64,000 bases of DNA from assembly GCA_027488835.1 (NCBI GenBank), contig JAIYAW010000002.1:62001-126000 (forward strand). The letters are read 5' to 3'. The translations under genes were made by a program, and so were the position numbers. This document shows, piece after piece, positions 49,696 to 55,869 of the stretch (within the stretch, counting starts at the first letter, position 1; every line of letters begins with the position of its first letter). The stretch is from Bacteroidota bacterium. Its GTDB lineage: Bacteria; Bacteroidota; Bacteroidia; NS11-12g; UBA955. The notes under the pieces were generated by a model. It saw only the letters and a program-made list of their open reading frames with translations. It had not been told where the DNA came from and searched no databases.

Positions 49696-50703
49696 TTGTC
49701 AGACCAATCGTTACACACTCGCAAATTAGACCATATTCAATTGGCCTTTCAATCTCAGTTATCTGAACAAGATTCGCGTTTTTATTACGAACCTCTGTTT
49801 TCTGCATCACCAATTTCTGGATGTATTCCGCCGATGCAAATGGCCGGTAAAATTATGCGATTTCCTCTCTGGATTAGCAGCATGACGGGTGGCGCGGAAT
49901 TGGCAGGTGACATTAATAGAAACTTAGCAATTGCTTGCAAAGAATTTGGCTTGGGAATGGGATTGGGCTCGTGCAGACCAGTTTTGGTAGATGCTTCAAA
50001 CGCCAAAGATTTTGCAGTTCGTAAGTTCATAGGAAATCAACCCCTGTATGCAAATTTGGGTATTGCACAAATCGAAGAATTATTTGCATCAAAACAAGAG
50101 AATAAAATTTCTGAGTTGGTTGATTTGTTAGAGGCGGATGGACTCATCATTCATGTGAATCCATTGCAAGAGTGGTTTCAGCCTGAAGGTGACAAGTTTC
50201 AATTGCCTCCCATTGACACAATAAAAAGGGTGATTGACAAATTCCATTTTCCCATTATGGTGAAAGAAGTTGGTCAAGGATTCGGACCAAAGTCCCTCAA
50301 TGCATTGATGAAATTACCTTTGGAAGCTGTTGATTTTGGCGCTTTTGGAGGGACGAATTTCAGCGTTCTTGAAAGTTTGCGCAGAACCGATGTAAGAAAG
50401 GAATCCTGGGAAAGTGCAACACATATTGGACATACTGCATTGGAAATGTCGGAATGGGTGATAGATGGTTTAAATCATAATCCCGGTGAAATCAAAGCCA
50501 AATCTGTTATCGTTTCAGGTGGAATTAATAATTTCTTAGATGGCTATTATTTCTTGAAATCAATCCCTCATAAAACGTTATATGCCCATGCTTCTTTGTT
50601 TTTGAAATATGCAATGCAGGGAGAACAAGAATTATTGACATTTGTTGAAAGTCAAGTCCAAGGACTAGAAATGGCTCAAACTTATCTTACATTAAAAAAA
50701 TGA
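49696..50703 (+). CDS. fni: Type 2 isopentenyl-diphosphate isomerase
   Basis: An FMN- and NADPH-dependent enzyme that interconverts IPP and DMAPP. The 335 residues fit the type 2 family. Visible are ISSMTGGAELAGDINRNLAI, LGMGLGSCRPVL, PLYANLGIAQ, VKEVGQGFGPKSL, VDFGAFGGTNFSVLE and VIVSGGINNFLDGYYFLKS. No ATG exists at the N-terminus. TTG 49696 gives MSDQSLHTRKLDHIQLAF, matching the family start, and sits 7 bases after the -7 box. It is the first gene of the six-gene mevalonate operon and overlaps HMG-CoA reductase by four bases (ATGA). Confidence 0.95.
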   Translation: MSDQSLHTRKLDHIQLAFQSQLSEQDSRFYYEPLFSASPISGCIPPMQMAGKIMRFPLWISSMTGGAELAGDINRNLAIACKEFGLGMGLGSCRPVLVDASNAKDFAVRKFIGNQPLYANLGIAQIEELFASKQENKISELVDLLEADGLIIHVNPLQEWFQPEGDKFQLPPIDTIKRVIDKFHFPIMVKEVGQGFGPKSLNALMKLPLEAVDFGAFGGTNFSVLESLRRTDVRKESWESATHIGHTALEMSEWVIDGLNHNPGEIKAKSVIVSGGINNFLDGYYFLKSIPHKTLYAHASLFLKYAMQGEQELLTFVESQVQGLEMAQTYLTLKK

Positions 50704-52052
50704 TGAAAAACGAACCAATCAAAGGATTTAGTAAATATACAAAAGAAGCCAAGATAGAATGGCTTATTGATAATTATACCAATCAACCTGATGAATCCCG
50801 TCAAATGATTGAGGGATATTGGCATGCACAACCTGAAGTGCAAAAATTACACGATGAATTTATTGAAAATACAATCAGTAATTTTTACATGCCGTTTGGT
50901 GTTGCGCCTAATTTTTTAATCAATAACAAGATGTACGCAATTCCAATGGCTATTGAAGAAAGTAGCGTTGTGGCTGCTGCATCTAAATCTGCAAATTTTT
51001 GGTTAGAACGCGGCGGATTCAAAACCGAGGTAATTGGAATGGTAAAAGTGGGTCATGTTCACTTTTTGTGGGAGGGTTCAGACCTAAATTGGTTAACGGA
51101 ATTATTTGAAAGCAATAAGAATTTATTCTATACCAATACAGAAGACATTACCAAAAACATGAGAATTCGTGGGGGAGGAATTCAAGAAATTACTTTGTTG
51201 AATAAAACCGAATTCGAATCTGGATACTTTCAAATTGAGGTGAAATTTGATACCCGCGATAGTATGGGTGCTAATTTTATAAATAGTTGTTTAGAAGAAA
51301 TTGCCAAAACTTGGAAGCAATTGGTTGACGACAGAGAGTCTGATAATCAGCCAAATGTTACCATTGTAATGAGTATATTAAGTAATTTCACTCCTGAGTG
51401 CTTAGTGAGGGCTGAGGTTTCTTGCGCCATAGAAGACATTAATGAGGGAAGTGGAATAGGAAATCAAGAGTTTGCTGATAAATTCTGCAGGGCCATCAGA
51501 ATTGCTTCTATCGAACCTTACAGGGCTGTTACCCACAACAAAGGTATCATGAATGGAATTGATGCTGTAATTATTGCAACTGGAAATGACTTTCGTGCCA
51601 CTGAAGCTTGTGCCCATGCCTATGCCGCAAAAGATGGCCGATATACGAGTTTAACTCATGCTTCTGCCAAAGATGGAATTTTCAAGTTTTGGATAGAAAT
51701 GCCACTTTCAATTGGTACCGTTGGTGGAATAACAAGTTTACATCCCATGGTTAAATTTGCACATGAACTTTTGGGTTATCCCAATGCTTCTGGCTTAATG
51801 GAAATTGTTGCCGTTGCAGGTTTGGCTCAGAATTTTAGTGCTGTTCGTTCTTTGATTACAAGCGGTATTCAAAAAGGACACATGAAAATGCACCTGTTGA
51901 ATATTTTAAATCAACTCGAAGCTACTGATGAGGAGAAAGTTGAAATTGTAAACTACTTTAAAGATAAAGTGGTGAGTTTCAGCAATGCAGTTGAAATATT
52001 TTGTAAAATAAGAGGAATTTCAGCCGATTCTTTGACTTCTCACAAAAAATAA
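50700..52052 (+). CDS. mvaA: Hydroxymethylglutaryl-CoA reductase (class II-like)
   Basis: It reduces HMG-CoA to mevalonate, the committed step of the pathway. The 450 residues have no membrane anchor, as in class II enzymes. Key segments are FYMPFGVAPNFLINNKMYAI, the catalytic Glu in IPMAIEESSVVAAASKSA, DTRDSMGANFINSCLEEI, the catalytic Lys in AYAAKDGRYTSLTHAS, the NMNGID-like KGIMNGIDAV, and the late His in IQKGHMKMHL. In the operon a biosynthetic role is clear. It overlaps fni by 4 bases and the next kinase gene by one base. Confidence 0.95.
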   Translation: MMKNEPIKGFSKYTKEAKIEWLIDNYTNQPDESRQMIEGYWHAQPEVQKLHDEFIENTISNFYMPFGVAPNFLINNKMYAIPMAIEESSVVAAASKSANFWLERGGFKTEVIGMVKVGHVHFLWEGSDLNWLTELFESNKNLFYTNTEDITKNMRIRGGGIQEITLLNKTEFESGYFQIEVKFDTRDSMGANFINSCLEEIAKTWKQLVDDRESDNQPNVTIVMSILSNFTPECLVRAEVSCAIEDINEGSGIGNQEFADKFCRAIRIASIEPYRAVTHNKGIMNGIDAVIIATGNDFRATEACAHAYAAKDGRYTSLTHASAKDGIFKFWIEMPLSIGTVGGITSLHPMVKFAHELLGYPNASGLMEIVAVAGLAQNFSAVRSLITSGIQKGHMKMHLLNILNQLEATDEEKVEIVNYFKDKVVSFSNAVEIFCKIRGISADSLTSHKK

Positions 52053-52987
52053 TGCGTTCGTATTTCGCTCCAGGTAAAATTATGATCACCGGTGAATACC
52101 TGGTGATGAATGGATTTGAATGCTTGGCAGTACCTACCAAATTAGGACAATGGATGCATGTTTGGGAATTTGAAACACCTAAGGGGTTGTCAGATTTTAT
52201 CATGTATCAAGCCAAAGATTTAAAAGATAATGTTTGGTTCGAAACTAAAATCATCCTTCCGCATTTTGAAATTAGTGATCCCTCTCAAGTTGATAATATT
52301 CAAGTTAATCGTCTTGTTGGAATCCTAAAATTAGCGGATTCAGAATTTTGGCAAGAAGGGAAATCTTATCGAATAGAAACGGTTTTAGAATTTGAAAGAA
52401 CTTCAGGTTTGGGAAGTAGCAGTACCTTGGTTAATCTTTTTTCAGATTATTTGAATATCGATCCATTTAAAATTCAATTTGATATTTTTGGGGGAAGTGG
52501 ATATGATGTGGCTGTAGCTAAATTTCAGAAACCTTTGATTTATTGGTTAACTGAGGATGATTCTCATTGGAAATATTGGAAATTAGATAAGTCGTTAACT
52601 GAAAATTGGAATGTGGTTTTTTATGGTCAAAAAATGGATTCCAGGGCAAGTGTTTCAGGGGTTCAAGATGCTTTGAATGACATTGCTGAAGATGATTTTT
52701 ATACGGCACAGTTCGATAAAATATTAGAAATGTCAAAAAATGCTTCCGATATGATTTCTTTAGAATCGAGTTTAGAGATGTATCAAATGCTTTTGGCTCA
52801 AGCCTTGATCATTCCAACTACATACGATTTATTGGAAATAAAACCAGTAAACAAAGGATTGTGCAAATGGCTGGGCGCTTGGGGTGGTGACATGATTTTG
52901 GTGAATCAAACCATTTTAGATGCATATCCAGGGGCATTCGATAATTTTAGTATAGTGAAATGGAATGATTTGGTAATTAATGAATAA
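52052..52987 (+). CDS. GYDIA-family GHMP kinase
   Basis: A 311-residue GHMP-superfamily kinase of the Bacteroidota GYDIA type. Motif 1 is FAPGKIMITGEYLVMNGFE (about 4-22), the ATP-binding motif 2 is SGLGSSSTLVNLF, and the name motif appears as GGSGYDVAVAKF (about 148-159), with Val in place of Ile. The late motif is WLGAWGGDMIL. Its position between HMG-CoA reductase and mevalonate diphosphate decarboxylase, with a separate mevalonate kinase downstream, suggests it phosphorylates mevalonate or phosphomevalonate. No other phosphomevalonate kinase is in the operon. It overlaps the reductase by 1 base and mvaD by 8. Confidence 0.85.
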   Translation: MRSYFAPGKIMITGEYLVMNGFECLAVPTKLGQWMHVWEFETPKGLSDFIMYQAKDLKDNVWFETKIILPHFEISDPSQVDNIQVNRLVGILKLADSEFWQEGKSYRIETVLEFERTSGLGSSSTLVNLFSDYLNIDPFKIQFDIFGGSGYDVAVAKFQKPLIYWLTEDDSHWKYWKLDKSLTENWNVVFYGQKMDSRASVSGVQDALNDIAEDDFYTAQFDKILEMSKNASDMISLESSLEMYQMLLAQALIIPTTYDLLEIKPVNKGLCKWLGAWGGDMILVNQTILDAYPGAFDNFSIVKWNDLVINE

Positions 52988-54017
52988 CAAAAAGATGCAA
53001 GTGAAATACCGTTGTCCGAGCAATATTGCTTTGGTGAAATATTGGGGGAAAAAAGAAGGCGGAGTGCAATTGCCTGCAAATGCAAGTATCAGTTGGTCGC
53101 TGAGCGATTTATTTGCAGAAACTACAATGATTGCATCTACCGAAGCAGGCTCAAAACTCACATTTACGTTTAAAGGTGAATCAAAACCCTCTTTTGAACC
53201 CAAAATATTGGCATTTTTAGAGCGAATTTCGGAATACAGTGAGTTTGTTAAAACACATAATTTCATTATCGATACTGTAAATAACTTCCCTCATGGAACT
53301 GGGATAGCAAGTTCTGCTGCCGGTTTCGGAGCATTGGCAATGTGTATTGCCGATTTGGAGGGTAAATATGAAAATGATAGTGTTGAGTTTTTAGAACGTG
53401 CAAGCTTCTTTGCCCGTTTGGGTTCTGGTAGCGCATGTAGAAGTGTTTACGGCAAACCTTCCGTTTGGGGTGAACATCCTGAAATAGACAATAGCAGTGA
53501 CTTGCATGCAGTTCCTTTCGAAAAAGGGATTCATCAATCGTTGAGCAATTGGAAGGATTGTGTATTAATCGTTGATGATGGAGAAAAGAAGGTGAGTAGC
53601 ACAGCAGGACATGCTTTGCTTCAAAATCATCCATATGCTACTGCGAGATTTAAAAACGCACAACAGAATATCGTTAAAATTACCAATTATTTCCAAAGTG
53701 GAGATGTGGCTAATTTTATTGCATTGGTAGAATCCGAAGCCCTTCAATTGCATTCAATGATGATGTCCTCTATTCCATATTTTACCTTGATTAGGCCCAA
53801 TACCTTGGCTATTTTGGAGGAAATTTGGTCTTTCAGAGAAGAAACACATTTGCCTTTGGCATTTACCTTAGATGCTGGAGCAAATGTTCACCTATTGTAT
53901 GATAAACAATACGAAATAGAGGTTTCAAACTTTATTAACAATAAGTTGTTAGTATACTGCAAAAATGGTACGTATCTTTGTAGTAATATTGGAGGTACCC
54001 CTCATAAAATAGCCTAA
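52980..54017 (+). CDS. mvaD: Diphosphomevalonate decarboxylase
   Basis: It makes IPP from mevalonate 5-diphosphate with ATP. The 345 residues are normal. The N-terminal substrate loop is RCPSNIALVKYWGKKEGGVQ (about 10-29), with PANASISWSL next. The ATP motif is FPHGTGIASSAAGFGALAMC, SGSACRSVYGKPSVWG follows, and the catalytic Asp region FTLDAGANVHLLY is near the C-terminus. It overlaps the upstream kinase by 8 bases and the downstream kinase by one base (TAATG). Confidence 0.96.
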   Translation: MNNKKMQVKYRCPSNIALVKYWGKKEGGVQLPANASISWSLSDLFAETTMIASTEAGSKLTFTFKGESKPSFEPKILAFLERISEYSEFVKTHNFIIDTVNNFPHGTGIASSAAGFGALAMCIADLEGKYENDSVEFLERASFFARLGSGSACRSVYGKPSVWGEHPEIDNSSDLHAVPFEKGIHQSLSNWKDCVLIVDDGEKKVSSTAGHALLQNHPYATARFKNAQQNIVKITNYFQSGDVANFIALVESEALQLHSMMMSSIPYFTLIRPNTLAILEEIWSFREETHLPLAFTLDAGANVHLLYDKQYEIEVSNFINNKLLVYCKNGTYLCSNIGGTPHKIA

Positions 54018-54958
54018 TGTTAAAAGAGTCCTTATATTATGCCAAAATATTATTGTTTGGTGAATATGGAATCATCGAAGATTCTATGGGATTAAGCATT
54101 CCTTACACTTTTTTCAAAGGGAAATTCGAATTTTCTTCTCAGTTTAATGAAGAACAAAAAGATTCAAATGAAAGCATTGCCAAGTTTGTTGCCCATTTGA
54201 AAGTTATGGATGCAAATGGTGATTTGCCTTGTAAATTTGATTTTTCTAAAATAGAAGCCGATTTAAGCAGCGGTTTGTATTTCAATAGTAGCATTCCCCA
54301 AGGTTTTGGTGTGGGTAGTTCGGGTGCTTTGGTTGCAGCGTTATACAATCAATATGCTACAGATCAAGTAGCTGCAGACATGGTAATGAAAGGAGATAAC
54401 CTCGCCAATTTAAAAGTGATTTTATCTACCCTTGAATCTTATTTCCACGGAAAAAGCTCTGGTTTAGATCCTTTGATTTGTTATTTGAATTTGCCAATTT
54501 TGATTAAAGGCAAAGGCAATTTAGGGGCGGTTGGTATGCCTACTGAAAATATAGAAGGAAAAGGTGCTATTTTCTTGATGGATTCAGGAAGTCCCGGAAA
54601 AACCCAAGGAATGGTTGCCATTTTTCTCCAAAAATTAAAAGACGAAGGGTTCAGGAATTTAGTTAGAACCCAACTTAAAAAATACAATGATGGCGCTGTG
54701 AAATCTTTCTTGAAAGGCGAAAACAAACCATTGTTTGAGAATGTAAAAGCAATTTCTTCACTTTTTCTTGACAATTTTAAACCGATGATCCCTCAAAAAT
54801 TTGAAGGAATTTGGCGTACAGGATTAGAAACAAATGCATATTACTTAAAACTTTGTGGAAGCGGCGGTGGTGGTTTTGTTCTTGGCTTTACTCAAGATTT
54901 TGAGCAAGCTGAAAAAATGCTTAGTGGTCATAAATTACAAGTAATTTATAAGATTTAA
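54017..54958 (+). CDS. Mevalonate kinase-like GHMP kinase
   Basis: A 313-residue GHMP kinase. Motif 1 is YYAKILLFGEYGIIEDSMGL (about 7-26), where FGEYGIIEDS matches mevalonate kinases. Motif 2 is PQGFGVGSSGALVAALYN, FHGKSSGLDPLICYLN contains the catalytic Asp, and the late motif LKLCGSGGGGFVLGF is complete. Bacteroidota mevalonate operons usually hold one such kinase plus the GYDIA protein. This one is the better candidate for mevalonate 5-phosphorylation. It overlaps mvaD by one base and lies 2 bases before the prenyltransferase gene. Confidence 0.88.
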   Translation: MLKESLYYAKILLFGEYGIIEDSMGLSIPYTFFKGKFEFSSQFNEEQKDSNESIAKFVAHLKVMDANGDLPCKFDFSKIEADLSSGLYFNSSIPQGFGVGSSGALVAALYNQYATDQVAADMVMKGDNLANLKVILSTLESYFHGKSSGLDPLICYLNLPILIKGKGNLGAVGMPTENIEGKGAIFLMDSGSPGKTQGMVAIFLQKLKDEGFRNLVRTQLKKYNDGAVKSFLKGENKPLFENVKAISSLFLDNFKPMIPQKFEGIWRTGLETNAYYLKLCGSGGGGFVLGFTQDFEQAEKMLSGHKLQVIYKI

Positions 54959-54960
54959 GT

Positions 54961-55869
54961 ATGCCATTTATGGGCAACAAAAAAATAATTAAATTTATTT
55001 ATTTCTTGGGTATCATTCGTTGGTACAATGTATTGCTCATGATTTTGGGACAATATTTTTTAGCTTTGTTTGTTTTTGGTCCACAATATTCATTTCGACA
55101 AATAGTATTCGACAAAACGCTACATTTAATGGTATTATCAACCATATTTACCTTATGTGGTGCATTTGTAATTAATTCATTTTATGACTCCGATAAGGAC
55201 TTGGTGAATAAACCTAAATTGGCACTTGTGGGTAGGGCAATTGGTACAACGTTTTTAGCAAATAGCTATGTTCTTTTTAACTTATTGGCTTTGTTATTTG
55301 CCTTTTGCGCATCTAAGAAAATTCTTATTTTCTATTTTTTTTACATATTAATTTGTTGGTTTTATTCGCATAAATTGCAAAAGAAACCGATAGTCAGAGA
55401 ACTTTCTGCCAGTCTATTAACGATGGCGCCGTTGATTGCAATTTGGATACATTATGGTGTGTGGGATTGGAAATTGATGTATTTCTTTTGTACGCTGCTT
55501 ACATTATTATTCACCAAAGATGTGGTCAAAGATTTGGCCGGACACAAAGGGAATTTGATTTTCGGTTATAATACAGTTGTTGTAGCTGCAGGAAAATCAA
55601 AGGTTAAACTAGGATTGGTTATATTTAATGTAGCGGTATTTGTTGTTTTTATAGGAATTTATTTGATTCAAAAAGATCAGTTTTATAAAAATGTAGATTT
55701 GATATTGGGCTCGTCGATTACATTAATTTCTACAATTTTGGTCACGGCAATGGGATTAACATCTTGGACTGAAAAATACAAAAGAATGGATTTGATGCTG
55801 AAATTTTTAATTACCTTTCATTTGGCGTTGCCCTTGTTTACCTTCTTTATAAATATTGCCTCAATATAG
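54961..55869 (+). CDS. UbiA-family prenyltransferase (geranylgeranylglycerol-phosphate geranylgeranyltransferase-like)
   Basis: A 302-residue membrane protein with about eight or nine helices. The first Asp-rich motif is FVINSFYDSDKDLVNKP (about 74-90), and the second is TKDVVKDLAGHKGNLIFGYN (about 185-204), as in UbiA enzymes. The closest annotated Bacteroidota relatives are called geranylgeranylglycerol-phosphate geranylgeranyltransferase. That would attach a second prenyl chain to an archaeal-type lipid headgroup, but quinone or other polyprenyl acceptors are not excluded. It lies last in the mevalonate operon, 2 bases after the kinase, so it probably uses the C20 or longer product of the pathway. 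Confidence 0.75.
   Translation: MPFMGNKKIIKFIYFLGIIRWYNVLLMILGQYFLALFVFGPQYSFRQIVFDKTLHLMVLSTIFTLCGAFVINSFYDSDKDLVNKPKLALVGRAIGTTFLANSYVLFNLLALLFAFCASKKILIFYFFYILICWFYSHKLQKKPIVRELSASLLTMAPLIAIWIHYGVWDWKLMYFFCTLLTLLFTKDVVKDLAGHKGNLIFGYNTVVVAAGKSKVKLGLVIFNVAVFVVFIGIYLIQKDQFYKNVDLILGSSITLISTILVTAMGLTSWTEKYKRMDLMLKFLITFHLALPLFTFFINIASI

Follow-up and report, generated by a model that had tools for sequence, protein, structure and literature searches.

Which enzyme would add the second phosphate in a bacterial mevalonate operon that holds two GHMP kinases and no classical phosphomevalonate kinase (PMK)? The question is raised by a 64,000-nucleotide stretch of DNA from a Bacteroidota bacterium (GenBank assembly GCA_027488835.1, contig JAIYAW010000002.1, positions 62,001 to 126,000; hereafter, the window), in which one kinase is of the GYDIA type and the other resembles mevalonate kinase (MVK). 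Computational support from several directions suggests that the GYDIA kinase very probably carries out the second phosphorylation. We put at roughly 0.88 the probability of the whole reading, namely, a eukaryote-type mevalonate operon in which the GYDIA protein is the PMK, the kinase starting at 54017 is the MVK, and the diphosphomevalonate decarboxylase (MDD) acts on the diphosphate. The two kinase assignments had been proposed by an earlier sequence-only reading of this DNA, and they are favoured by the phylogenetic profile, profile–profile comparison, and active-site motifs described below. The operon occupies positions 49696-55869 of the window and consists of six open reading frames (ORFs), all on the + strand:

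49696-50703, +, type 2 isopentenyl-diphosphate isomerase, divergent, TTG start; TIGR02151 191.5 bits (cut-off 281.3)
50700-52052, +, HMG-CoA reductase (HMGR), class II ("degradative" model); TIGR00532 261.5 bits (cut-off 259.95), PF00368 302.6 bits
52052-52987, +, GYDIA-type GHMP kinase, proposed PMK; NF040656 196.9 bits (cut-off 225), E 4.2e-58; motifs SGLGSSS, GGSGYDVA, and GAWGGD
52980-54017, +, MDD; TIGR01240 158.3 bits (cut-off 171.35), E 2.1e-46; PF22700 124 bits and PF18376 37.1 bits, both above cut-off
54017-54958, +, divergent MVK, the second kinase; TIGR00549 59.6 bits (cut-off 163.05), E 3.3e-16; motifs HGKSSGLD and GSGGGG
54961-55869, +, UbiA-family prenyltransferase; PF01040 51.2 bits (cut-off 34.2); in the same place in the related loci L098-L101

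The ORF coordinates and family matches confirm the operon as first described, from isomerase to prenyltransferase; the isomerase and UbiA genes fall just beyond the range first quoted for it (50700-54958). The overlaps of 1 to 8 bases claimed for the junctions hold for four of the five (4, 1, 8, and 1 bases in succession), but UbiA follows after a 2-base gap. Four of the six proteins (isomerase, GYDIA kinase, MDD, and MVK) score below the NCBIfam cut-offs and are therefore divergent members of their families, and the isomerase has no Pfam match up to E 1. Promoter and terminator scans gave signals no higher than in shuffled sequence.

In the proposed pathway, whose reactions and directions are read from gene order, family membership, co-occurrence, motifs, and predicted fold, HMGR would supply mevalonate, whose O5 position would be phosphorylated by the 54017 kinase. 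The GYDIA kinase is about 300 residues long, is of the PMK type of GHMP kinase, and stands in place of the Gram-positive-type PMK found in seven other MDD genomes; it would then attach the second phosphate, yielding mevalonate 5-diphosphate. MDD would convert this to isopentenyl diphosphate and the type 2 isomerase would form dimethylallyl diphosphate; the UbiA protein presumably takes a longer prenyl chain.

Distribution of the GYDIA kinase and genome content

The genome that contains the window (2.49 Mb in nine contigs, 99.37% complete) yielded no DXR in a profile search, and thus has no usual methylerythritol phosphate pathway. Over the whole genome, the GHMP model PF00288 matches only two places, MDD and the second kinase. 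The GYDIA protein reaches only 12 bits and escapes this model; the GYDIA and PMK models were therefore also run on the genome. NF040656 gave one match, and TIGR01220 gave none at E 0.001. The claim that only two GHMP kinases are available thus holds genome-wide as far as the PF00288, GYDIA, and TIGR01220 models see. An additional PMK, on which the sequence-only reading had let its proposal stand or fall, was found with none of these three models, the animal P-loop type (PF04275) and the mevalonate 3-kinase model not having been searched. In the other GYDIA genomes, PF00288 picks out at least one additional GHMP protein in 6/8, by eye a galactokinase or homoserine kinase.

The distribution of the genes was examined in 395 genomes, which are one draw from the phylum; Fisher's test on co-occurrence ignores relatedness. 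Matches were counted as strong at E < 1e-50 for GYDIA and E < 1e-25 for MDD (our own thresholds). The strong counts leave out seven genomes with weak GYDIA matches (five on PMK genes and two partial) and 187 genomes with weaker PF22700 matches, 91 of them above the Pfam cut-off (partial, approximately 29-36 bits). Strong MDD matches occur in 61 genomes and strong GYDIA matches in 54, and all 54 are among the 61. These 54 genomes all belong to the class of the window and fall into four family groups (f1, f4, f5, and f6). The remaining seven MDD genomes (G066, G159, G227, G235, G266, G297, and G314) carry a full-length Gram-positive-type PMK (recognized with TIGR01220) beside MDD, and the two kinds of kinase are found together in none of the 61; two GYDIA genomes (G088 and G331) have partial matches of 22 bits to the PMK model. 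In five of the seven PMK genomes, the weak match of the GYDIA model lands on the PMK gene itself. DXR was detected in 335 genomes, none of them from the four GYDIA families, and six of the seven PMK genomes are among the 335. The nesting of GYDIA in the MDD set, together with its complementarity to PMK, argues that the GYDIA protein fills the slot of PMK.

In the seven PMK genomes, which lie outside the class (L089-L095), an HMGR-MVK fusion of 747-774 amino acids lies near PMK and MDD. The PMKs of L089 and L095 were scanned against NCBIfam, and the PMK model scored best for both.

The same distribution bears on the idea that the GYDIA protein lies outside the chemistry of the pathway and that an unrecognized kinase elsewhere is the PMK. 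Diverged GHMP proteins can slip past PF00288, as the GYDIA protein does, and an animal-type PMK lies beyond the models used. However, the GYDIA gene accompanies MDD in 54/54 genomes, complements the known PMK, and keeps its operon position in related genomes and in two metagenome-assembled genomes (MAGs) labelled as Bdellovibrio-like families. We consider this idea the least probable of the alternatives, with hardly any chance of being correct.

Assignment of the two kinases

Profile–profile comparison separates the two kinases. With hhalign, the GYDIA profile aligned with the PMK profile at E 4.6e-16 (score 119), compared with 1.3e-9 (73) for the MVK part of the fusions and 1.6e-9 (73) for the second kinase. 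The second kinase in turn aligned with the fused MVK at 2.6e-12 (90) and with PMK at 2.5e-8 (65). When the comparison with PMK was repeated with smaller sets, the scores were 127 and 39. Among the profiles compared, the GYDIA kinase is nearest to PMK and the second kinase is nearest to MVK.

Active-site motifs sort the proteins in the same way in samples of 66 GYDIA kinases, 16 second kinases, 7 PMKs, 7 fused MVKs, and 22 other GHMP proteins. A third motif ending in GGD and the pattern GS..D(I/V/L)(A/V) are both present in 66/66 GYDIA kinases and 7/7 PMKs, and both are absent from 7/7 fused MVKs and from all 22 other GHMP proteins; the second kinases have the first in 0/16 and the second in 1/16. 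Conversely, the MVK motifs HG..SG.D and GGGG occur in 16/16 second kinases and 7/7 fused MVKs. The corresponding GYDIA and PMK motifs are GKLLLTGEYxVLDGAxAL and GKLILLGEYAVLExAPAL, GGSGYDIA and GKxGSGVDIA, and GAWGGD and GAGGGD. Lys194 and Trp277 of the GYDIA kinase are invariant. The Listeria protein 3k17, which played no part in the choice of patterns, shows GSCGDIA and GSGGGD in the alignment. In a quick-search tree that held 64 GHMP kinases, all 21 GYDIA rows lie on one side of a branch with SH-aLRT support of 100, and the GYDIA kinase of the window groups with four relatives, separately from the remaining 16 members sampled, with a support of 94.

The predicted fold is also consistent with a PMK. 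The AlphaFold model of the GYDIA kinase (pLDDT 95.1) had its top Z scores with 3k17 (24.8) and the pneumococcal PMK 3gon (24.1), and the Foldseek TMq value for 3gon (0.70) was the best among the 50 matches listed.

Several results weigh against the assignment. By Z score, WcbL (23.3) and the mevalonate kinase 8tfo (23.2) are tied with 3gon in their match to the GYDIA model, and another pneumococcal PMK entry, 1k47, reaches 21.9, below several MVKs. Foldseek E-values place MVKs first and 3gon at rank 12. The model of the second kinase (pLDDT 81.8), with a Z score of 18.1 for PMK and 17.1 for MVK, is not discriminating. In a sequence search of the PDB, the GYDIA profile found the Methanocaldococcus jannaschii MVK (E 4.9e-11) and no PMK, and the GYDIA model also matches M. 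jannaschii, below cut-off, among 14 control genomes. The motif patterns were picked after the PMK alignment had been seen. The seven PMKs of the phylum themselves score below the TIGR01220 cut-off, which was passed by 0/395 genomes and 0/14 controls, Lactococcus included. In the GHMP tree, the GYDIA kinases and the second kinases each make up a single clade with a very long stem, and the deep order is not resolved. We gave less weight to the PDB sequence result in view of the close relationship between MVK and PMK: hhalign relates PMK to the fused MVK at E 5.5e-25, and the PMK profile matches a Leishmania MVK ahead of the pneumococcal PMK.

These points bear directly on the exchange of roles that had been offered as an alternative, in which the GYDIA protein would be the mevalonate kinase and the 54017 protein would be the phosphomevalonate kinase. 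In its favour are the archaeal MVK as the best PDB sequence match of the GYDIA protein and the predicted fold of the 54017 kinase, for which a PMK comes top by Z score, tied with or slightly above the MVKs. However, the motifs sort in the opposite sense in 66/66 and 16/16 sequences, hhalign places both kinases opposite to the exchange, the best PDB sequence match of the 54017 profile is the Staphylococcus aureus MVK (E 3.4e-5), and the GYDIA model matches PMK genes in five genomes. The motifs in particular disfavour the exchange, which we regard as quite improbable.

The decarboxylase and the order of the steps

In our reading, the decarboxylase would act on the diphosphate. TIGR01240 is the best NCBIfam model for the MDD protein (52980-54017), with 158 bits compared with 76 for the phosphomevalonate decarboxylase model. 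The Lys of the YWGK motif and the Asp of DAG are kept in 28/28 decarboxylases of this type, including that of the window. Speaking against this view, the nearest solved relative is 6n0x (identical in sequence to 6n0y), titled as a mevalonate 5-phosphate decarboxylase from Anaerolinea. The same 28 proteins have a His at the position where 7/7 classical enzymes have a Met; the Anaerolinea enzyme likewise has His, and its variant 6n0z has Met. His occupies this position in the Legionella MDD 3lto, too. The Anaerolinea enzyme thus has one His in common with the decarboxylase of the window but Asn in place of Lys in YWG(K/N). At the two positions where the alignment shows a difference between the Anaerolinea wild type and 6n0z, the window protein agrees with the variant at one (Lys) and with the wild type at the other (His). 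A 2022 paper (PMC9254496) reports that the specificity of a phosphomevalonate decarboxylase (PMD) was switched to that of a diphosphomevalonate decarboxylase (DMD) by mutagenesis. We infer that the Lys/Asn and His/Met positions are those concerned.

Because the decarboxylase combines a PMD-like His with a DMD-like Lys, a route via isopentenyl phosphate retains some slight probability. In such a shifted order, the decarboxylase would act on mevalonate 5-phosphate to yield isopentenyl phosphate, and the GYDIA protein would be a GHMP-type isopentenyl phosphate kinase. The relationship to 6n0x and 6n0y and the His shared by all 28 proteins fit this order, as does the lack in the genome of a usual isopentenyl phosphate kinase above the cut-off of 120. 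A single 21.2-bit match to that model is a UMP-kinase-like ORF adjoining an elongation-factor-Ts-like ORF (both named by eye), and a profile search of the genome for the AcnX dehydratase found none. On the other side stand the YWGK Lys in 28/28 proteins, compared with Asn in the Anaerolinea enzyme, the same His in the Legionella MDD, the TIGR01240 score, the PMK motifs of the GYDIA protein, and the general pathway reported for Flavobacterium johnsoniae. We judge the shifted order to be quite unlikely; if true, this branch of Bacteroidota would take the steps in an order like that of haloarchaea, but its kinase would have a different fold.

Related operons, known systems, and HMG-CoA synthase

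In 69 of the 80 named GYDIA loci, which are the best 80 of 557, HMGR lies upstream of GYDIA on the same strand within 250 bases. All six genes recur in the order of the window in L099 and L100, and L098 and L101 have the same order, broken only by the contig start; the GYDIA proteins of these four MAGs are 41-44% identical to that of the window. The recurrence of the gene order in related genomes suggests more than chance. In family f5, which by resemblance is Flavobacteriaceae, the set is split, with HMGR-GYDIA in one place and MDD-MVK-UbiA in another, whereas the window has one operon; MVK adjoins MDD in 8/8 of the f5 MDD regions fetched. In f4 and f6, MVK does not adjoin MDD in 13/13 regions, and it lies elsewhere in the three genomes inspected (G012, G281, and G037).

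Flavobacterium johnsoniae, according to Hayakawa et al. in 2017 (BBRC 487:702), reportedly runs the general pathway, its kinases being distant relatives of the known MVK and PMK, and it belongs to bacteria related to that of the window. The GYDIA kinase of the window shares the PMK motifs, the predicted fold, and the pairing with MDD of the Gram-positive-type PMKs (TIGR01220; 3gon, 1k47, and Listeria Lin0012 3k17, a PMK by similarity). Compared with the seven PMKs of the phylum, it is approximately 30-60 residues shorter and has a Trp in the third motif (GAWGGD). It matches the NF040656 family over positions 2-277 of 299 and shares its motifs, but it falls under the curated 225 bits and is filed as a divergent relative.

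It had been stated that GYDIA proteins have no firmly assigned reaction. This agrees with the NCBIfam label (hypoth_equivalog) but omits the 2017 biochemical paper on F. johnsoniae. In the open literature, we found no paper that assigns a reaction to GYDIA, the name itself having been searched only once, with two unrelated papers. Hayakawa et al. 2017, cited in PMC8431678, reportedly identified enzymes of the F. johnsoniae pathway, and a 2014 genome paper (PMC4026382) reports an apparent absence of PMK from Flavobacteriaceae (it "seems to be missing"), where a GHMP kinase might serve instead. A branch of Bacteroidota shares this wiring, most of which has already been reported for a relative, and the assignment is thus well supported, fairly ordinary, and modestly new. 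If it is true, the PMK gap noted in the 2014 paper would be closed, and databases could rename the "GYDIA family GHMP kinase" (a hypothetical equivalog in NCBIfam, June 2026) as phosphomevalonate kinase in a large bacterial group. The one-operon form would offer a compact test bed.

HMG-CoA synthase was not found in the genome of the window by PF01154 or by a Bacteroidota HMG-CoA synthase query; this second missing piece of the pathway also tells against the reading. PF01154 gave no match above cut-off in 10/12 GYDIA genomes tested, and the query gave none at E 0.01 in 11/14, this genome being included in both sets. An HMG-CoA synthase-like protein occurs in G012; of the 14 genomes, one other (G178) encodes a clear relative of it, and G029 gives a weak match (E 3e-4). 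TIGR00748 found only KAS III-like matches in the genome of the window, and a KAS III-like protein of approximately 354 residues, considered as a flavobacterial HMG-CoA synthase, has its best NCBIfam score with a FabH-like model. On contig C1 of the same genome (L212, ~342-346 kb), tandem KAS III-like genes are followed by a short-chain dehydrogenase gene; in G012 (L216), a KAS III-like gene resembling these is also accompanied by a dehydrogenase.

Two more distant MAGs, L118 and L165 (labelled Bacteriovoracaceae and Halobacteriovoraceae, respectively), carry isomerase-HMGR-GYDIA-MDD-MVK in one operon in which UbiA was not detected. These operons reflect either gene transfer between phyla or a binning error in both MAGs. 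The genes downstream of the two operons look similar by eye.

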